DNA from: an endosymbiont 'TC1' of Trimyema compressum | GTDB taxonomy: Bacteria > Bacillota > TC1 | Reading direction: 5' to 3' | Length of the DNA: 64,000 nt | Assembly: GCF_001584725.1 (NCBI RefSeq) | Contig: NZ_CP014606.1 | Span: 1,517,501 to 1,581,500, forward strand | Part shown: positions 3,032-60,608 of the stretch, in pieces | How positions within the stretch are numbered: position 1 is the first letter of the stretch | Layout of the letters: each line of letters begins with the position of its first letter | Notes under the pieces: model-generated | Database searches by the model: none | What the model saw: only the letters and a program-made list of their open reading frames with translations | What the model was told of the DNA's origin: nothing | Position numbers and translations under genes: made by a program

Positions 3032-6000
3032 CTTGATTCTCTATGACAAGCTTATCCAACATTTCAAGAAATGATAATAAGCTTTCTCCACTTACTGTAT
3101 CTATTGTATAGTATATTACAATTTTATCTTTCTCTTCATAAGTAATCTGTTTTTTATGTGTGTTTTTGATGATTTTAGCTAAGCCCATAGTTATGTTATT
3201 ATTTTTAAAAGTAAACACAAGACCTTTCATATTCTTGCCTATTTTTTCAATTTTCAAACGAGCAGCTAAAAGTCTTATATGGGCTACTAAAAACAAGTGA
3301 TTCACCACATCAGGCAATGGCCCAAAACGATCAATAATCTCTTCTCTTAAACTCCCTAAAGATTCTTCATCATCAATATTAGCCATTTTTTTATAAAGTG
3401 CCACTTTAACATTAGGAATTGGTACATACTCATCAGGTAGATAGGCTTCAATATCCATTGGCAGAACAAGGGGTTCTCCTCTAACAGGTTCCTCAGACAC
3501 CTCACCTGATAAACGCCTTGCCTCTTCATCTAAAATCTTACAATAGAGATCAAATCCTACTGAAAGCATATGACCATGTTGCTCTTTTCCTAATAGATTA
3601 CCTGCACCTCTAATTTCTAAATCAAGCATAGCAATTTTAAAACCTGAGCCAAGCTCTGTCAACTCCTTAATTGCCTGTAGACGTTTTATAGCATTATCAC
3701 TTAAGTTTTTTTGACTATGAAACATAAAGTAAGCCGAAGCCACTTTATTTGAACGGCCGATTCTACCTTTAATTTGGTAAATTTGAGAAAGACCTAACAT
3801 ATCAGCATTTTCTATTATTAATGTATTGGCATTTTTTATATTTAAACCATTTTCAATTAGTGTCGTGCAAAGCAATACATCGACACGGCCTTCAAAAAAA
3901 TCCAACATATTCTTTTCTAATGTTTTTTCATCCATTTGGCCATGAGCAATTGCAATACTCACTTCTGGTACAATACTTTGTAAAGTCCGCTTTTTATCTT
4001 CAATATTCTTTACAGTATTATACAGATAATAAATCTGCCCATTTCGTTGTTTTTCTTTAAGAATACTATTCCTAATAACACTGTCATCATGAGCTAAAAC
4101 ATATGTTTGAACAGGATAGCGCTCCTTTGGAGCAGTCTCAATAACACTTAAATCACGAGCACCAGCTAAAGCCATATGGAGGGTCCTCGGAATGGGTGTG
4201 GCAGAAAGTGCTAGGGAATCAATATTGTTTTTCAGAGCTTTTAAACGCTCTTTATGAGTTACACCAAACTTCTGTTCCTCATCAACAATTAACAGTCCCA
4301 AATCCTTAAATACTACACCTTTAGACAACAAACGATGGGTACCAATTAAAATATCAATTTGACCCTTAGCCAAATCCTCAATAACTTCTTTTTGTTTTTG
4401 CTTCGATACAAAACGATTTAAAAGTCCTATATGCATAGGGAAATCTTGAAACCGTCTTATAAAGGTTTCATAGTGTTGCTGTGATAAAACTGTAGTCGGG
4501 GATAAAAGTACAACTTGCTTCCCTTCAATAGCTGCCTTAAAAGCAGCCCGTAAAGCAACTTCCGTTTTGCCATAACCTACATCTCCAATAACAATGCGAT
4601 CCATAGGTGTTGTTTTTTCCATATCCCCCTTAACGTCTATAATAGCCTTCATCTGGTCTTCTGTTTCCTCATAGGGAAATGTATCTTCAAATGCCATTTG
4701 CCAAGGAGTATCTTTTGAAAAAGCATAACCTACTGCCATTTTTCTTTCAGAATAAAGTTTCAATAAATCTTTAGCCGTCTCACTAACAGCTACACGAACC
4801 TGTTCTTTGGTTTTTTCCCAATCATTGGCTCCTAAACTAGAAAGTCGTGGATGATGCTCTTCCCCTCCAATATATTTTTCAATTGCTTCAATATTATCTA
4901 CAGGAATAAACAATCTTCCTGTACCTGAAAATACTAATTTTAAATAGTCTTTGCAAATACCTAATACTTCTTTAGATTCAATGCCATCATATTGAGCAAT
5001 ACCATATTCTTCATGGACTATATAGTCTCCTAATTTAATATCAATAAAAGGATCTAATTTTTTCTTTTTCTCTTTTTTCTTCTTTTTAGAACCACTTTTA
5101 ACTTGACCAAAAATTGTTTTCTCACTAATACAAACTACATTTAGCCTTGGTAATCTAAAACTCTCTCCTAAATAGCCTTTTTCAATGTGGATTTTCTCTC
5201 CTACTAAGCCATGGCTTCTGAGCAACTTTTCTAAACTTTTCTTCTTATTGTCGTCTGTAGCAAAAAGGTATATTGTATCCTCATTTCTCATATAGTTTAT
5301 AATTTCCTTAACAAAGAAATCCATTTCCCCTAAAAAAGATGGAATTAAAGATTTCTCCCAGCGTACAAATGTTCCAAATTGTAGGGCTGTTTCTTTATAG
5401 TAAAAAAGATAGGAAAAAACTTTATGCCAATCTTTAAATAATCTGAAAAAATCTTCTTTAAAGTATGTTTCACCTTGAATGGGATGAATTAAACCTTCCT
5501 CAATACCTTCAGCTATGGTTTCTTCATTTTCTCTTAAGAATATAGCTTGGTTGGTTTTAATAGTTTCATACTCTCTAAAGAGAAGGGTTGGTTTTTTCTT
5601 ACTATAGTCTGTTAAAGATACTAATTCCTCAAAAAAAGCAGGGAAAAAGCGTTCCTTCTCTTCTGAATAGATACCATCTTCCATAGTCTCTATTTCTTCA
5701 CGTAAAGCACCATAAGTATATTCTTTTAAAGTTTTAATAGCTACTTTTACATTACCATTTTGAAGGGGCAAATCTGTTGTTGAAAAAATTTCTACTTTCT
5801 TAATTTCTTCAATAGTTCGCTGATTTTCTAAATCAAAATGCTTAATTTTTTCAATTTCCTCATCAAAAAAATCAACCCGTATAGGATAATCATCTGTTGG
5901 CACAAAAATATCAACAATATCCCCTCTTACACTAAACTGAGCCTTATTTTCAACTAAAGGTTCTTTCCTATAGCCTAAATAGACTAATCGCTCTATTAGT

Positions 6001-48773: not shown

Positions 48774-50038
48774 TGGACATATACTAAAAAAGTAGACAGG
48801 AAAAAGTGAAACATGTTTTAAATAAGTAGACACATAAGAAAGGATAAAATTATGAATAATTACAAGAAATACGATGAAGAATTTAAAAAAAGTATTGTTA
48901 ATTTACACCAAAACGGTAAAACTCAATCCCAACTTTCTAAAGAATATGGTGTCTCCATGTCTGCTTTACACAAGTGGATTAAACTTTATTCTCAGGTTAG
49001 AATTGATGATGATACTATTCTAACCGCTAAGCAGATTAAGGATCTTCAAAAGCGTAATGCTCGACTCTAGGAGGAAAATATCATTTTAAAAAAAGCAATT
49101 GCCATATTCACGCCTCACTCAGACAAAGATTAATGGCTGTTCATACCCTTCGTTTTCAGCACGCTATCTCTTTTCTTTGTCATGTCCTTAAAGTGAACCG
49201 CAGCTCCTATTACAAATACTTTTCGGAAAAACTTTCTCCTAGAACTATTGAGAATTAAAAACTCCGTCAGCTTATTCTCGGAGATTTGTCATCTTACTAA
49301 GAGACGTATTGGCCCATCTAAGATTAAGGCTCTTCTTTCCTATGACTATGGCATCAACATCAGTATTGGTAGAGCGAGCCGCCTGATGACTGACATGAAT
49401 CTTCCTAAAATGCCTACTATCAAACTTCGGTTTATTCATCCGAGGTCTATTCCCAATTTTGATTGCCCTAACTACCTAAATCAAAATTTTAATGTTCCTC
49501 AGCCCAATCAAGTCTGGGCTAGTGACATTACCTATATTAATTTAAATGCCTCTTTTGCTTATCTCTGTGTTATTATGGATTTATTTTCTCGTAAAATTAT
49601 TGCTTGGAAGCTCTCTCTTAAAATTGATACTTCTCTTGTTAAGGATACTTTTATCAAAGCCTTTTATTCTCAAAAACCTTCTACTTCTCTTATTTTTCAT
49701 TCTGACAGAGGTTCCTAATATACTTCTTTTATCTTTAGAAAGCTCCTTGATTCTTTTGGTATCATTCAATCTTTTTCTAAGCTTTCTCATCCTTGGGACA
49801 ATGCTGTCGTTGAGTCCTTTTTAAATATATGAAAAAAGAAGAAATTCTTCGTAGGTCTTTTTCTTCCTTTGCTCAAATTAAGCTTTCCTGCTTTGAACAC
49901 ATTGAGGGCTTCTACAACCCCCTATACGTCCCCACTCTGCTAATAACATTCTTTCTCCTAATTCCAAAGAAGACTATTTTTTCACTTCTATTAAAACTTA
50001 ATTTCACTTTTTCTATCTACTCTATTGACATTCTTCCA
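48774..50038 (+). mobile_element. IS3-family insertion sequence, copy 2
   Basis: A 1265-base element identical to copy 1 except for one extra T (run of four T at 49084-49087 against three in copy 1), by my reading. Both ends match copy 1 exactly. No target-site duplication is seen (AAC at left, AGC at right). The left flank is a GDPD gene fragment and the right flank is the cut end of an adhesin gene, so the junction is not a simple insertion. Confidence 0.92.
48852..49977 (+). pseudogene. IS3-family transposase (orfA + orfB), copy 2, several stops
   Basis: The same coding content and the same lesions as copy 1: TAG at 49068-49070, TAA at 49256-49258, TAA at 49716-49718 in HSDRGS-stop, and a missing T in the last DDE block. 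The only change is the T4 run, which keeps frame through NIILKKAIAIFTPHSDK and includes an A7G slip-like sequence at the orfA/orfB boundary. It cannot make a full transposase without suppression. Confidence 0.88.
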
Positions 50039-53960: not shown

Positions 53961-56900
53961 TCAATAAATTTTTAATTTTTTTAAATGCTTGGTATTTTTT
54001 AATAATGTCTGAGATTTATCCTTTATCTCCACATTATTAATATGTAAAGGTTGTTTTTCAATTAAAGGATGTCCCACTTCAACACCCATATCAGCAGCTT
54101 TTTCTCCGTTAAAATTCCCTGAACTGGTTGGACACTCTTTTTTCCTGTTTTTCTTTTCTTTATGTTTTGAGTAATGGCTGCATCATCATACCCTTTTACT
54201 GAAACGATATTTATAATGTCCTTATCATCAATCCTAGGATTAATAATAGTGTCAAATACAAGGGTTCTACGATCACCACTATTAAAATCTCCTAAACTAA
54301 TTTTTAAAACATTATTGTTGAATATTTCTGAATCCTCTAAATGTACCCCCCCATCTAAATAAACTGCACCTGGTTTATAAGTTACTTCAATTGGCAATTC
54401 ATCTATTAAGATTACACTTTCCCATAAAGACTCTTCAACAGCTCTATTGCCAACATCTATTGTATATCTCACAATATCACCTGGTTGATTTCTACCATCG
54501 GTAGAATTCAAATTTTTAGATACTTTTGATACACGAGATTTAACAGGATACTTGGTTACTTCAATACCGATAGCAGAATTATTAATAGTTTTTCCTGCTG
54601 CACTTCCTAAAATTACTGACTCAAAAGTGACAGTTACTGACTGTCCATTGACAATATCACCTAACTCAACCTCTAGTTCTCTATATTGAGAATCATATGT
54701 TGCTTTTCCTCCTGCAACTACACCATCTATTTGCACACTATTTACATCAATATTAAGTCCTTCTGGTATAAAATCAAAGAAGTGTTATATCTTGCCAAAT
54801 GGAGCTATTTAAAGCTTTGTTAGAGACCACAATGGAGTATTTTAAGGTATCGCCTACATAGTTTTTGCCATCATGTGATGTTAAATTCTGCACACTTTTA
54901 ATTACACTAGGAACTACTGGAGATTCGGAAATGGCCACTGCTGCTTCTGTAACCTCTTTTGAAACTAGAACATTCTGGTCGTTTTCATCAATAGCTATGC
55001 CTTTAACACGTGCTGTATTATTAAAAGTTTGTCCATATCCAGAAGTAATTTTTATTTCAAATGTCACAGTAGATATTTTACCGCCTGACGCAACTCCTAG
55101 TGTACTCATATCCCCTATTGAAATTGAATTCAAATCATATTAGCTCCCTAAACCGTTAACTTTTAAAGAGCTTGGAATAAATTCAACTTGTGAAGGCAAT
55201 GTATCTTTTAAAACAACGTCTTTCCAAATGGAATCCATTTTTTATTGTCCATAGTAATGGCATAACGAATAGTATCTCCTACAAAATATTTGACATCGTT
55301 TCTGGAGAGGTTCTCTACTGTTTTCTTAAGAGATACTTCTGGCATTGTGGATTCTACAATGCCAAATGCCTTATTCGTTTTATGAGGTTTAATAGTATCA
55401 ACTGGGTCTATATCATCCGTTATGGTTACATATATTATTTCACCTGATTGCAATTTATCTGCTTCAGCCGCTTCAACAGTTACATTAAACAAATTATTCC
55501 CAGTCGTATCTCCATTTGCAAGCAGCGCTGAACCAATTAATGTATCATCATTTTTGTAGACATTAACAGTTGCTGGATTTGTTAATATGCTACTGTAATC
55601 ATTAACTCTTTCTGCTGATTTTCCTTTAACATTTATACCTATTTTGCCATCTGCTTTTTTACAAAAAGATTTATTTTTGTATCAGACATAGCAAATACCT
55701 TATCAGGTGATATTATGGATTGCATATAAGCAGTACCTGATACGGTTGTATCCATATCATGGACAGAAGTCATACTTTGAGTTCTGCCATGAGTCCCTAT
55801 ATCCACTCGACTTTTTAAATCAGCTTCTGTTGTTGCTGGTTTTTGATCAATAGTAATAAATGGATCTGGATTTTCTTGATAAATACGGCCATATTCTTGT
55901 AGTTTAAATTCGTTTACTCGAGCAGTTGCTTTATTTGCTCCTGGTCCAAACACCCCTGGATTGGTATACGTTGTACCATTATGAAAAGCATTAATTGGAT
56001 TACTTCCTGCCTGCTATGATAATACTAATTTATTATTATCATAAGGTCATTTCCTATATACCATGTGCTTATAGCTGTATTTTTAGCTATAAAACGAATG
56101 GCATCATTTTTTGATAAAAATCCACCAATAGCTCTTCCTCCAGAACCATCATTTCTAATATCAAAAGCTCTCGCATTATCAATGGTAACTTTACTATCTC
56201 TATGCGAGCCTCAATCAATAGCGGGATCTTTCTCGCTGTTGTTTTTTTTGCGACTAATATACCGCCTGCATTTACATTGATTGTTAGCGGCATAATTCCA
56301 TAGTAACTAATACTAATGGCAGCATGGGAATAATCGCCAAGTGTGCTTTTAGTATTTTCTTTAATTGAATTTACTCTAATATAAAATTTACTCTAATATA
56401 AATTTTAGTGCCATCCTCTAACATTCCTGTGCCCGAAATATTAATAGCTGCAGATTTTTGACTTTGGAAATTAATACCAGCTCTGTGTCCTTCATTTGTA
56501 TAAGCGTCTAATAAGCCACCACCTGTAATATTGATAGTACTAACACCAGTACCATCAGAAAAATAAGCACCATATAATCCACCATTATGAATTAACTTAA
56601 ATTCTGACCCTGGACCGTCTACATTCATAGTTGTCTGAGCAGCAACTGTATAGATTGTACTATCTCTCTGACTTGTTAAAATAGCTTTAGCGCCACCTTT
56701 AACATTATAAGTAGCAACATTTTGAACCGCCAGGAATTTCATTAGCAATAGACAAATAGCTACCTTCTGCATTTAAGACTGTCCCTTTGCCTTCAGTATT
56801 AAGGGTCCTATTTCCTCCTGCTAATGAAATGGCCTCTATAGCCTGCAGATTTAATATTGACTTGTGCACCATCTTTAAATGTCACAACCTTTATTACATT

Positions 56901-58395
56901 ATTTCCATACAATGACAATGCTGCATATTCAGTTGTGTTATTGGCTGGAGTACAATCAATATTAAGAACACCACCTGCAGCAACTGTAGAATTTTTATCT
57001 CCTGTGGAATTGTGTTTAAAAACTAAACTATTTCCATTTTTTACTTTTTACATTTAATTCTCCAGTAATAGTCATTACTTGAGAACCATTTCCATCTATT
57101 AAAAACGGAGCAGGGCTACTGTATACATTTGAGGTAGTAGCATTACCTTCAACATTGACAACAGCGCCTTTTTCAATATTTAACTCTACTCTAGAAGTAT
57201 TTCCAACAACTAAGGCATCTCCAGTTGTATTGGTATTTTTAAAACTTACGTTTGCACCAGATGAAACATTAAATCGATCTGCTCTACTAGCTTGTATCGT
57301 AGTATTATTTGAAACCATTTCAGTAGTTGTTGAGCCTAAGAAGCTTATATCCTTATAGCCCTTTACTAAAACACTTGTTCCTCTAATACTATTATTACCA
57401 TCAAAAACAACTTTACCGGAATTAGTATTGCTATTATCTAGTAATCCAGCAATTGATGTAGTAGATACATTATTAATTAAAATATCCCAGTTACTATAAC
57501 TGTCATTTTTGAAAACAACACCAGAACTTTCTAATTTGACATTAACAAATGACACCTTACCTGAAGTGGATCTAGAAGGTTGCATAGTTGTTGTAATACG
57601 ATTGCCAGTAAAGTTAATAGATTGCCATTTCCGTTGATTATTAAATCTTTACTAGGAAGGTTCATAATTGTTGAGCCAGATGTTCTAGTAATATTCCCTT
57701 TCAAATCAATTTGTGTAACACTTGGTGAAGAAACAGCAGCCATAAATTCTGACCAACTTGAAACATTAACAGCATCTGACCTAGCACCAAATGTTGAAAT
57801 TTCTGGTAAAGCTTCTTCATCCACGTTATCAATTAGATCTAATTTTTCTTCTTGCTCTTCAGCAACTTCATCTATCTTATTTTCTTCTAAAGGTACTGTT
57901 TCAATATTTTCATCATAAGCTTTACCTTCACTATTAACAATTTGAGTATAAAACCTACTTTCTTTTTCCTCATCATAAACATGCGTCTTAAAAGATATTT
58001 TATTCTCACCTTCTTTTAAGATATTTAAATTAATAGAGGCAATTTGTTTATTTACCCCATTAGCATCAACCATCATATCCCAATCATCATAACTACCACG
58101 CTTTAGCACTTCATCATTTAAATACATTTCCCCAGCAAAAAAATTCATTTTCACTAAATTCATTTGTTAGAAAAAGATCTTGATTATTTTCTTTTAGCGA
58201 TAGAATTTTATCTTTTTCTAAAGTAATGGAATAAGAGACTTCTTGTCCAATAGCCTCATGTTCAATATTAAACAAATGCTTGTCTGCACTCATTACATTA
58301 CCAGCACTTATTGCTACTGCAATACAGTTTAGTATTACTGAAAAGAAAAATACCATTAGCATAAACAAAGCTTGCTTTTTCATCACTTTACTCAT
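53961..58395 (-). pseudogene. Giant pectate-lyase-like adhesin, copy B, multiply frameshifted
   Basis: A signal peptide (MSKVMKKQALFMLMVFFFSV) begins about 1,475 codons of decayed coding sequence. Order: an N-terminal beta domain (GEMYLNDEVLKRGSYDDWDM), an acidic linker (EENKIDEVAEEQEEK, absent from copy A), and the start of the adhesive beta-helix at WSEFMAAVSSPSVTQIDLKG. Helix repeats (GNNSIRGTSVLVKG, NITGGGLLDAYTNEGHRAGI) and IDQKPATTEADLKSRVDI follow. At least three DUF11-type domains (GDTLKYSIVVSNKALNSSIW, QPGDIVRYTIDVGNRAVEES) end the protein, in a frame that stops at 53961. About a dozen frame changes occur, near 58140, 57600, 57040, 56830, 56750, 56380, 56060, 55650, 55200 and 54770 among others. 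There is no LPxTG. The anchoring mode is unknown. Confidence 0.82.
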
Positions 58396-58884
58396 TTTAT
58401 ACCCTCCCTATTTTGAAAAAAATCTATTTTTCACTTTAAGTAATTTATATCAATTCACAATTTTACTTTAAAATCATAAAATGCTACACAATATGTGAAC
58501 AATAATTCATGACATATATTTCCTGAACTAGATTTTTTGACCAATACACCATAGTTTTAGACACACTTAAATTATCATCTCCAATAGATTAAAGCAATAA
58601 TAAACGCCGATTAGGAACCCAATACATAATATATCTTAAGAAGCAATCTCTTTTTATATTAATTACAAATCTGTAATTTTATATTCTCTGTACACATCAT
58701 CATTAGGCAATTACAGCTTTTAAGTTTAAATATCTTCTTGTTAAAACCCTATAATAAAAGGGAATTTTTTTAATCTTAACTCAAACTAAACACATAAAAT
58801 TATATTGCTAAAAACAAATATAATTAACTGCATTTAATTCACTTTTGAACTCATTTTAATCTTTCTGAATTACTTGTAAAAAAA

Positions 58885-58928
58885 GATATTAAAAAGAATA
58901 TTTCACGTGAAACATTCTTTTTAATATC
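58885..58928. promoter_or_regulatory. 44-bp palindrome with parS-like core
   Basis: Two 15-base arms (58885-58899 and 58914-58928) are perfect reverse complements. They flank a centre with TTTCACGTGAAA, and only one base pair of the whole 44 is mismatched. The 16-mer 58899-58914, TATTTCACGTGAAACA, matches the parS consensus TGTTTCACGTGAAACA at 15 of 16 positions. The palindrome overlaps the -35 region of the parA promoter. Confidence 0.85.
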
Positions 58929-58943
58929 TTCCTATGTTATAAT
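58915..58943 (+). promoter_or_regulatory. Probable parAB promoter
   Basis: TATAAT at 58938-58943 with TTCTTT at 58915-58920, 17 bases apart, followed by GAAGGAAG as ribosome binding site before the ATG at 58982. The -35 lies inside the parS palindrome, so ParB binding could repress the operon. Confidence 0.55.
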
Positions 58944-58981: not shown

Positions 58982-59737
58982 ATGAAAACTATAGCAATTA
59001 TTAACCAAAAAGGCGGCGTTGCAAAAACAACGACTACAATAAACCTAGGAGCTTACTTAGCATCTTTAGGAAAAAAAACACTTATTGTTGATTTAGACCC
59101 TCAAGGTAATGCAACAAGCGGCCTTGGCATTAATCGTTTTGATTTAAGCAAATGCATCTATGATGGACTAATTAATGATGAACCTGTTGAAAATGTTATT
59201 CACAAAACAGCAGTAGAAGACCTGGATTTGATTCCAGCAACTATTCAGCTAGCAGGTGCAGAAATAGAAATGGTAGCAGTTATTAGTAGAGAATACTTAC
59301 TAAAAAATTTACTAAAAACAATAGTCAATTATGATTATATCTTAATTGACTGTCCACCATCTCTCGGCTTACTTACATTAAATGCTCTCACTGCAGCAGA
59401 TAACTACATTGTACCAATTCAATGTGAATACTATGCATTAGAAGGATTAGGACAACTTCTTAAAACTGTAGAATTAGTAAAAAAAGGTCTCAACCCAGAC
59501 TTAGAAATGCGTGGTGCCTTAATGACAATGTACAACGCTAACACAAACTTATCAGCTCAAGTGGTAGCAGAAGTAAAAGCATACTTTAAAGAAAAAGCAT
59601 TTAAGTCTATTATTCCTAGGAGCATACGTCTATCTGAAGCACCTAGCCATGGAGAGCCAATTAGTATTTATGATAAACAATCAAAAGGAGCTTTAGCCTA
59701 TGAGGCTTTAGCAAAGGAGGTAATTAAGCGTGGCTAA
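58982..59737 (+). CDS. parA: Chromosome-partitioning ATPase ParA/Soj
   Basis: A 251-residue deviant Walker-type ATPase. The P-loop is QKGGVAKTTTTINLG, Walker A-prime/B regions are VDLDPQGNATSGLG and LIDCPPSLGLLTLNAL, and RLSEAPSHGEPI lies near the C-terminus. The usual Gly in KGGVGKT is Ala here (GGVAKT), a change common in chromosomal Soj proteins. It works with ParB at parS to segregate origins and regulate initiation. It overlaps parB by 8 bases. The frame is intact. Confidence 0.96.
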   Translation: MKTIAIINQKGGVAKTTTTINLGAYLASLGKKTLIVDLDPQGNATSGLGINRFDLSKCIYDGLINDEPVENVIHKTAVEDLDLIPATIQLAGAEIEMVAVISREYLLKNLLKTIVNYDYILIDCPPSLGLLTLNALTAADNYIVPIQCEYYALEGLGQLLKTVELVKKGLNPDLEMRGALMTMYNANTNLSAQVVAEVKAYFKEKAFKSIIPRSIRLSEAPSHGEPISIYDKQSKGALAYEALAKEVIKRG

Positions 59738-60590
59738 AAAAGGATTAGGAAAAGGACTCTCGGCTCTAATTCTTGAAAAAGAGAATCAATCAGAAAACCA
59801 AAACAATATTTTAACTTTAGCAATTAGTAAAATCAGACCAAACCCCAACCAACCTAGAAAAATATTTGAAAAAAAACCATTAAATGAATTAGCATCTTCA
59901 ATAAAAGAACATGGTATATTACAGCCTTTGGTAGCTTTCAAAAAAGGAAGCGCCTACTATTTAATTTCTGGAGAAAGAAGGCTAAGAGCTGCTCAGTTAG
60001 CAGGTTTATCAAAAGTACCTGTGCTCTTAAAGAATGTAAGTGATGAAAGCTCATCGGAATTAGCAATTATTGAAAATATACAGAGAGAAAATTTATCACC
60101 ACTTGAAGAAAGTGAAGCCTATGAACAACTCATAAGCCAATTTTCCCTCACACAGGATATGGTAGCTAAAAAAGTTGGAAAAAGCAGAAGCTATATTACA
60201 AATTTACTGCGTTTAAAACAACTACCTAAACAAGTTATAAATTATATAGAAAAAGGTGAACTTTCAGCCAGCCATGGACGCTCAATTTTAGCAATAGATG
60301 AATGTTATCAGGAGACATTAGCAGACTATATAGTAGAAAATCGATTAAATGTACGAGAAGTTGAGGCTTTAGTAAAAGATTTTTCTATTGAGAAAATCAG
60401 TAAAAAAACACCTACAACGAAAACCCTAGGAAATAATGAAAAGGATGTTCATAGGGAAGCAGTTGAAAAAGATTTAGAATCAATTTTTGGTACAAAAGTA
60501 TTTATTAAAGGTAAAAACAAGGGAAGCATAGTATTAAAATACCATAATGAAGAAGATTTAATAAGAATTGTTGAAAAACTTTTGAAATAA
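59730..60590 (+). CDS. parB: Chromosome-partitioning CTPase ParB/Spo0J
   Basis: A 286-residue parS-binding protein. The N-terminal KKGLGKGLSALI is the ParA-activating segment. The ParB N-domain has PNPNQPRKIFEKKPLNELA, with boxes IKEHGILQPL and ISGERRLRAAQLAG (the GERR motif of the CTP-binding site) and IENIQRENLSPLEES. A helix-turn-helix (VAKKVGKSRSYITNLLRL) reads parS, and a C-terminal dimer domain follows. Two parS sites lie on either side of the operon. The frame is intact. Confidence 0.96.
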   Translation: MAKKGLGKGLSALILEKENQSENQNNILTLAISKIRPNPNQPRKIFEKKPLNELASSIKEHGILQPLVAFKKGSAYYLISGERRLRAAQLAGLSKVPVLLKNVSDESSSELAIIENIQRENLSPLEESEAYEQLISQFSLTQDMVAKKVGKSRSYITNLLRLKQLPKQVINYIEKGELSASHGRSILAIDECYQETLADYIVENRLNVREVEALVKDFSIEKISKKTPTTKTLGNNEKDVHREAVEKDLESIFGTKVFIKGKNKGSIVLKYHNEEDLIRIVEKLLK

Positions 60591-60592
60591 AA

Positions 60593-60608
60593 TGTTTCAC
60601 GTGAAACA
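60593..60608. promoter_or_regulatory. Perfect parS site
   Basis: TGTTTCACGTGAAACA, an exact match to the consensus parS, lies 2 bases after the parB stop codon and 3 bases before the GGAGG site of the next gene. ParB bound here would cover that leader. Confidence 0.95.

Follow-up and report, generated by a model that had tools for sequence, protein, structure and literature searches.

Our analysis showed that the parS-like site in front of parA in the genome of the Trimyema compressum endosymbiont 'TC1' lies at the centre of a long, near-perfect palindrome. It is rather likely that this element unites a ParB site and a probable parA operator with an inherited rsmG terminator, whose arms became longer in the lineage of this genome. 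Here the window means the whole stretch of 64,000 nucleotides that was analysed (NZ_CP014606.1, positions 1,517,501 to 1,581,500), and positions are those of the window unless a contig is named. The features on which the analysis rests are as follows.

58883–58930, no strand: near-perfect palindrome of 48 bp with 23 of 24 positions paired (direct reading and dyad measurement)
58883–58899 and 58914–58930: perfect 17-nt arms flanking the parS core
58895–58918, no strand: 24-bp core AGAATRTTTCACGTGAAACATTCT, conserved in all six family genomes except for A58900
58899–58914, + strand: parS-like site TATTTCACGTGAAACA, one mismatch to the consensus (consensus comparison)
58878–58928, − strand: terminator-like hairpin and T-run facing leftward, with tail TTTTTTTACA (terminator scan; fold −26.1 kcal/mol)
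58915–58920, + strand: weak −35 candidate TTCTTT, abutting parS, 17 nt before the −10 (sequence only; absent from the promoter scan)
58935–58943, + strand: extended −10 TGTTATAAT for parA, at the same position in five of the six family genomes
58982–59737, + strand: parA (soj-type ATPase)
59730–60590, + strand: parB (spo0J-type, GERRLRAA motif)
60593–60608, + strand: second parS, perfect consensus, without palindromic arms, 2 nt past the parB stop

The palindrome and its folding

The initial annotation had placed parS inside a long palindrome with perfect arms, and this proved real, with a length of 48 bp and arms of 17 nt rather than 44 bp and 15 nt. The dyad axis falls between 58906 and 58907, pairing extends outward to 58883 and 58930, and the single unpaired position, A58900/C58913, is within the parS core. 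The palindrome score of 20 was the highest in the 64-kb window (runner-up 18), while the best score across 10 first-order Markov shuffles of the window was at most 12. The RNA of the + strand folds at −20.4 kcal/mol (z −7.1) and that of the − strand at −26.1 kcal/mol (z −8.4), with none of 200 shuffles as good in either case; the − strand hairpin is the stronger because the A/C mismatch turns into a G-U pair on that strand. An Rfam search of the hairpin at E 1 returned nothing but sub-threshold matches to eukaryotic small RNAs, and such an identity was dropped. Reading frames near the site are apparently broken in this genome of two contigs, so homopolymer lengths within the arms may be imperfect.

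Long palindromes are no rarity in this genome, as 21 with a score of at least 12 were found in 171,795 bases, among which the parS palindrome ranks second. The longest near-perfect palindrome in the examined parts of the genome, with a score of 23, is found at 12158–12204 of locus L054 and is flanked by two minus-strand genes. Seventeen of the 21 have the 3′ end of a gene on at least one side. The remaining four comprise two between divergent genes (the parS palindrome and one in L037), one inside an ORF and one without a right neighbour in view. Many of the 21, the parS palindrome likewise, end in an A-tract or T-tract. Long arms of this style are thus normal for the presumed terminators of this genome.

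The parS sites and the ParB protein

Consensus parS is a 16-bp inverted repeat close to TGTTTCACGTGAAACA, and the sequence at 58899–58914 is such a repeat with one mismatch. Only two good parS sites are present in the whole genome, this one and that at 60593–60608, about 1.7 kb apart. Guanine 1, the base mismatched at 58900, is described as being contacted by Arg173 of Caulobacter ParB (PMC7383237). The G-to-A change leaves the left half-site with A at base 1, and binding of ParB to this half-site may be weaker.

The cognate ParB carries CTP-binding and parS-reading residues: the motif GERRLRAA is present, with Arg at the position equivalent to 173 and Ser, not Gly, at 201 (Caulobacter numbers, carried over by motif and not by structure). 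Ser at the Gly201 equivalent was found in all six ParBs of the family (window parB and L006–L010), and their parS sites stay consensus at base 6. Gly201 is called absolutely conserved among extant ParB orthologs, and important for the choice between parS and the Noc binding site (NBS), in a study of these residues (PMC7383237). Of 101 motif matches in the scanned loci, 86 were Arg/Gly and eight were Arg/Ser, the latter coming from the six family genomes and two duplicate records; 80 loci from a second scan of named genomes, mostly Rhodobacteraceae, entered this residue count only. A first scan of named genomes had found no relative.

The NBS is a site of the type TATTTCCCGGGAAATA, and Noc has Gln173/Arg201. 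The A at base 1 of the left half-site is like an NBS; unlike one, however, the site has A at base 6 as in parS, the ParB has Arg173, and the search of this genome gave one ParB-family match and no second ParB/Noc-like gene. Assignment to Noc/NBS was therefore rejected. The locus resembles a chromosomal ParABS system of the Soj-Spo0J type in its 16-bp parS core, adjoining cognate parA-parB, second parS 1.7 kb off and dnaA nearby, but differs in that its parS has one mismatch and forms the apical part of a long hairpin.

Conservation in the family

The family set consisted of six genomes, the window's own and five of a sister genus. In all six, parS occurs both ahead of parA and behind parB, but only the former site has arms, the latter having 0–2 pairs of extension. 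Alignment of the six parA-side sites gave an invariant block, AGAAT-TTTCACGTGAAACATTCT, which extends 4 bases past the 16-mer on either side and from which the window deviates only at A58900. Conservation of the arms therefore holds in part: the innermost 4 nt on either side are the same in all six genomes, but the outer ~12 nt of each arm are particular to the window. The sister palindromes are 24–28 bp long, that of G004 being the longest. We infer that the long arms arose after the two genera had separated; no genome of the window's own genus was found in which these arms could be compared. Among four order-level relatives (G006–G009, the contig of G009 being short) parS was found after parB and in none before parA, so the layout is not order-wide.

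In the five sister genomes the parA-side site reads AGAATGTTTCACGTGAAACATTCT and then becomes T-rich, with its parS starting 2 nt past the rsmG stop in each. The left neighbour in all five is this rsmG-like ORF in the direction of parA, preceded by mnmE-like and mnmG-like ORFs (named by sequence similarity and gene order rather than by a family search).

The gene neighbourhood in the window

To the right of parS the window has parA, parB, a racemase-like gene, selA and selB in order. To the left, a divergent gene begins at 58395, leaving about 490 bases in which no ORF reaches 80 aa. The rsmG match of this genome is at C1:1476230–1476907 and parS at C1:1576399, about 100 kb apart, and no parS was found in the sequence after this rsmG. 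The stretch G000:C1:1476907–1576399, which takes in window 1–58395 and puts about 100 kb between rsmG and parA, carries core genes on the minus strand near parA, and its break adjoins parS. The 10 of its 45 ORFs that were scanned include TRCF/mfd, glmU-like, dnaX-like and secA genes on the minus strand. Since core genes lie within it, a rearrangement of the core chromosome, which the separation looks like, fits better than a mobile island, and the latter was dropped.

Consecutive or overlapping short surface-protein ORFs, one with a pectate-lyase-like adhesive domain, occupy 54062–58395 (− strand) and appear frameshifted or decayed. A lone integrase-core (rve) ORF, probably a transposase fragment, lies at 49248–49718 (+ strand), opposite to its neighbours. 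dnaA is about 8 kb downstream of parB in G001, G002 and G005. In the window's genome it is at the contig start, and the end of that contig is 10 kb beyond parS, which would make the distance similar if the contig is circular.

The hairpin as a terminator

The sister hairpins have a stem of 10–12 pairs, a loop of 4 and then 6–8 T in 8 bases (7–8 of 8 in three of the five genomes, 6 of 8 in the other two). Their folding energies lie between −11.5 and −14.7 kcal/mol and were equalled by at most one of 200 shuffles in each case; the second parS of the window and that of one sister, in contrast, fold no better than their own shuffles. A + strand terminator was called by the terminator scan in L163, the sole sister locus scanned. 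In the sister genus, then, a stem followed by a T-run stands behind a co-oriented gene, as in an intrinsic (Rho-independent) terminator, and judged from these sequences the parA-side site looks like a terminator hairpin capped by parS. A difference from an ordinary intrinsic terminator is that the stem contains a putative protein binding site.

The window departs further from this type. Its hairpin, with an AT-rich stem, is followed on the + strand by CCTATGTT, which is no T-run, and no terminator was called there; the left-hand neighbour is a divergent gene, and both the T-tract and the only call of the scan belong to the − strand. With rsmG 100 kb distant the hairpin has lost its likely client, and the odd placement of the palindrome between divergent genes is explained by the loss of this neighbour. 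The proposal that the palindrome ends upstream transcription is thus supported for the sister genus, where the conserved 24-bp version lies 2 nt past the rsmG stop and leads into a T-rich run, but not as a present function in the window.

The parA promoter and ParB

The extended −10 TGTTATAAT stands 23 nt after parS in five of the six family genomes, G004 having its promoter placed otherwise. In the window, parS ends at 58914 and the −10 lies at 58935–58943, so that the site abuts the parA promoter as an operator would. Reach of the palindrome into the −35 element of parA, as initially described, holds loosely: TTCTTT (58915–58920) is spanned, but it is a poor −35 that the promoter scan does not list. 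The suggested autoregulatory ParB operator agrees with the position of parS against the parA promoter, kept in all six genomes; judged by this position, an operator role at parA with putative repression is plausible.

The idea that the arms extend parS was not supported, as the second parS is armless in all six genomes. The arms were therefore rejected as part of the ParB site; with an armless second parS in the window and the five sisters, ParB seems not to need them.

parS hairpins across the phylum

A literal search for the 22-mer GAATGTTTCACGTGAAACATTC in 398 genomes of the phylum gave eight matches, the five sisters and G143, G147 and G186. In G186, perfect 12-nt arms surround parS, a T5 is present and parA lies about 145 nt further on. 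A search unbiased for arms found an exact parS 73–133 nt before the ParA QKGGV codons in 17 of the 398 genomes. In family f24 five of 20 genomes have such a parA-side parS, three of these already known.

For 26 parA-side sites in nine families the family-mean arm length was 2.8 pairs, against 0.94 pairs (sd 0.25) in a null of flanks mismatched between families, none of 5000 trials being as high. The 47 other parS sites showed a slight excess, a mean extension of 1.04 pairs against a null of 0.69 (fraction 0.02), and the family-level comparison of parA-side with other sites gave p 0.005. These statistics omit L135–L142, which were chosen by their arms and include the 12-nt-arm site of G186, as well as L001–L004, L048–L051 and L055–L134. 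Arms are not general: 13 of the 26 parA-side sites have fewer than 4 pairs. T content of the forward tail is only modestly above that of the reverse (mean 4.9 vs 3.5 of 8).

Terminator shapes are seen in G292 (AAGCCGT, parS, ACGGCTTTT) and G206 (CCCA, parS, TGGGTTTT). G292 and G376 have GC-rich arms with T4–5, G206 has arms CCCA/TGGG with T4, G200 has A5/T5 within a longer imperfect dyad, and G031 and G079 have A/T arms of 4 nt. The sites of f49, f35, f29 and f52 are short or without a T-run; next to the parS of G099 and of G094 there is a separate hairpin of terminator-like shape. Of five loci scanned for terminators, three (L150, L156 and L163) gave a call at the parS hairpin in the direction of parA, L150 on both strands, and the palindromic sites of L153 and L137 gave none. 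A divergent gene lies between rsmG and parA in G206 and G079, as in the window. In G206 a second parS also lies where rsmG converges with its neighbour (L169, reverse-complement position 3673); its flanks CCCTTTA and TTAAAGGG form a bulged hairpin, possibly one more parS-terminator that the ungapped count overlooked. A parS with hairpin-forming flanks before parA therefore seems to recur in several other families.

Discussion

As far as the sequences can tell, the extra arms are best explained by an inherited terminator-like hairpin that merged with parS, rather than by a larger ParB site. In this scheme parS would cap a terminator-like hairpin standing at the 5′ edge of the parAB operon. With the sister gene order rsmG-parS-parA-parB-parS, the hairpin would end the transcripts of the rsmG operon as RNA and load ParB as DNA. 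The parA promoter would follow directly behind it, and ParB on parS would abut the −35 region, so that lowered parA transcription is expected. In the window's lineage a chromosomal rearrangement would have placed 100 kb between rsmG and the site, the hairpin remaining with parA; its arms are longer and self-complementary, and the best T-tail now faces left. Any present termination would therefore block leftward transcription leaving parA, whether antisense or from a bidirectional promoter. Termination by the hairpin, binding of ParB and repression of parA are what we infer here.

We regard it as unlikely that the arms are neutral, that is, that fold-back template switching, in the course of replication or of the rearrangement, perfected an AT-rich quasi-palindrome around parS which does nothing past the 16-bp site. 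The outer ~12 nt of each arm, unique to this genome, the left arm, which is the reverse complement of the right and not like the rsmG end of the sisters, and the rearrangement break between rsmG and the parS site would all agree with this, but the six genomes share the inner 4 nt on either side, and different yet complementary arms surround the parA-side parS in other families. That variation also bears on an extended ParB operator, in which the arms would strengthen ParB binding or clamp loading and so keep parA under tight autorepression: arm sequences vary freely between families, unlike a protein contact, and the second parS has none in any of the six genomes, which makes this quite improbable even though the palindrome abuts the parA promoter in all six (the G004 promoter being placed differently). 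Precedents for a ParB-family site beside a promoter are described for P. aeruginosa, whose ParB represses promoters adjoining the intergenic parS3 and parS4 (PMC7022226), and for KorB, a ParB-family clamp that silences genes on RK2 (PMC11790492); unlike these, the site here stands at the promoter of parAB itself, with putative repression. That supercoiling extrudes the palindrome as a cruciform, and so turns ParB binding or parA transcription on or off, is very improbable. A near-perfect AT-rich palindrome of 48 bp would suit it, but a G+C-rich centre disfavours extrusion from the centre, the centre here is CACGTG, and the sister palindromes reach 24–28 bp only.

We therefore keep to the merger of parS with an inherited terminator. 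In the literature covered (titles and abstract openings, mostly outside subscription journals, and parts of PMC7414963), no account of parS as a terminator was found. A wider reading, offered tentatively and held to be doubtful, is that fusion of parS with an intrinsic terminator at the rsmG-parA border happened repeatedly in several families of the phylum. The DNA would load ParB, the RNA would stop rsmG-operon transcripts and ParB occupancy would set how much transcription enters parAB, which would couple the amount of partition proteins made to the occupancy of the centromere.

A parS site is commonly viewed as nothing more than 16 bp to which a protein binds. Should many of those on the parA side double as terminator hairpins, one piece of DNA would be both the centromere and the border at which transcription of its own operon is set off. 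The flanks of parS could then no longer be taken to reflect the specificity of ParB, and deleting parS would alter the transcription of rsmG and parAB too.
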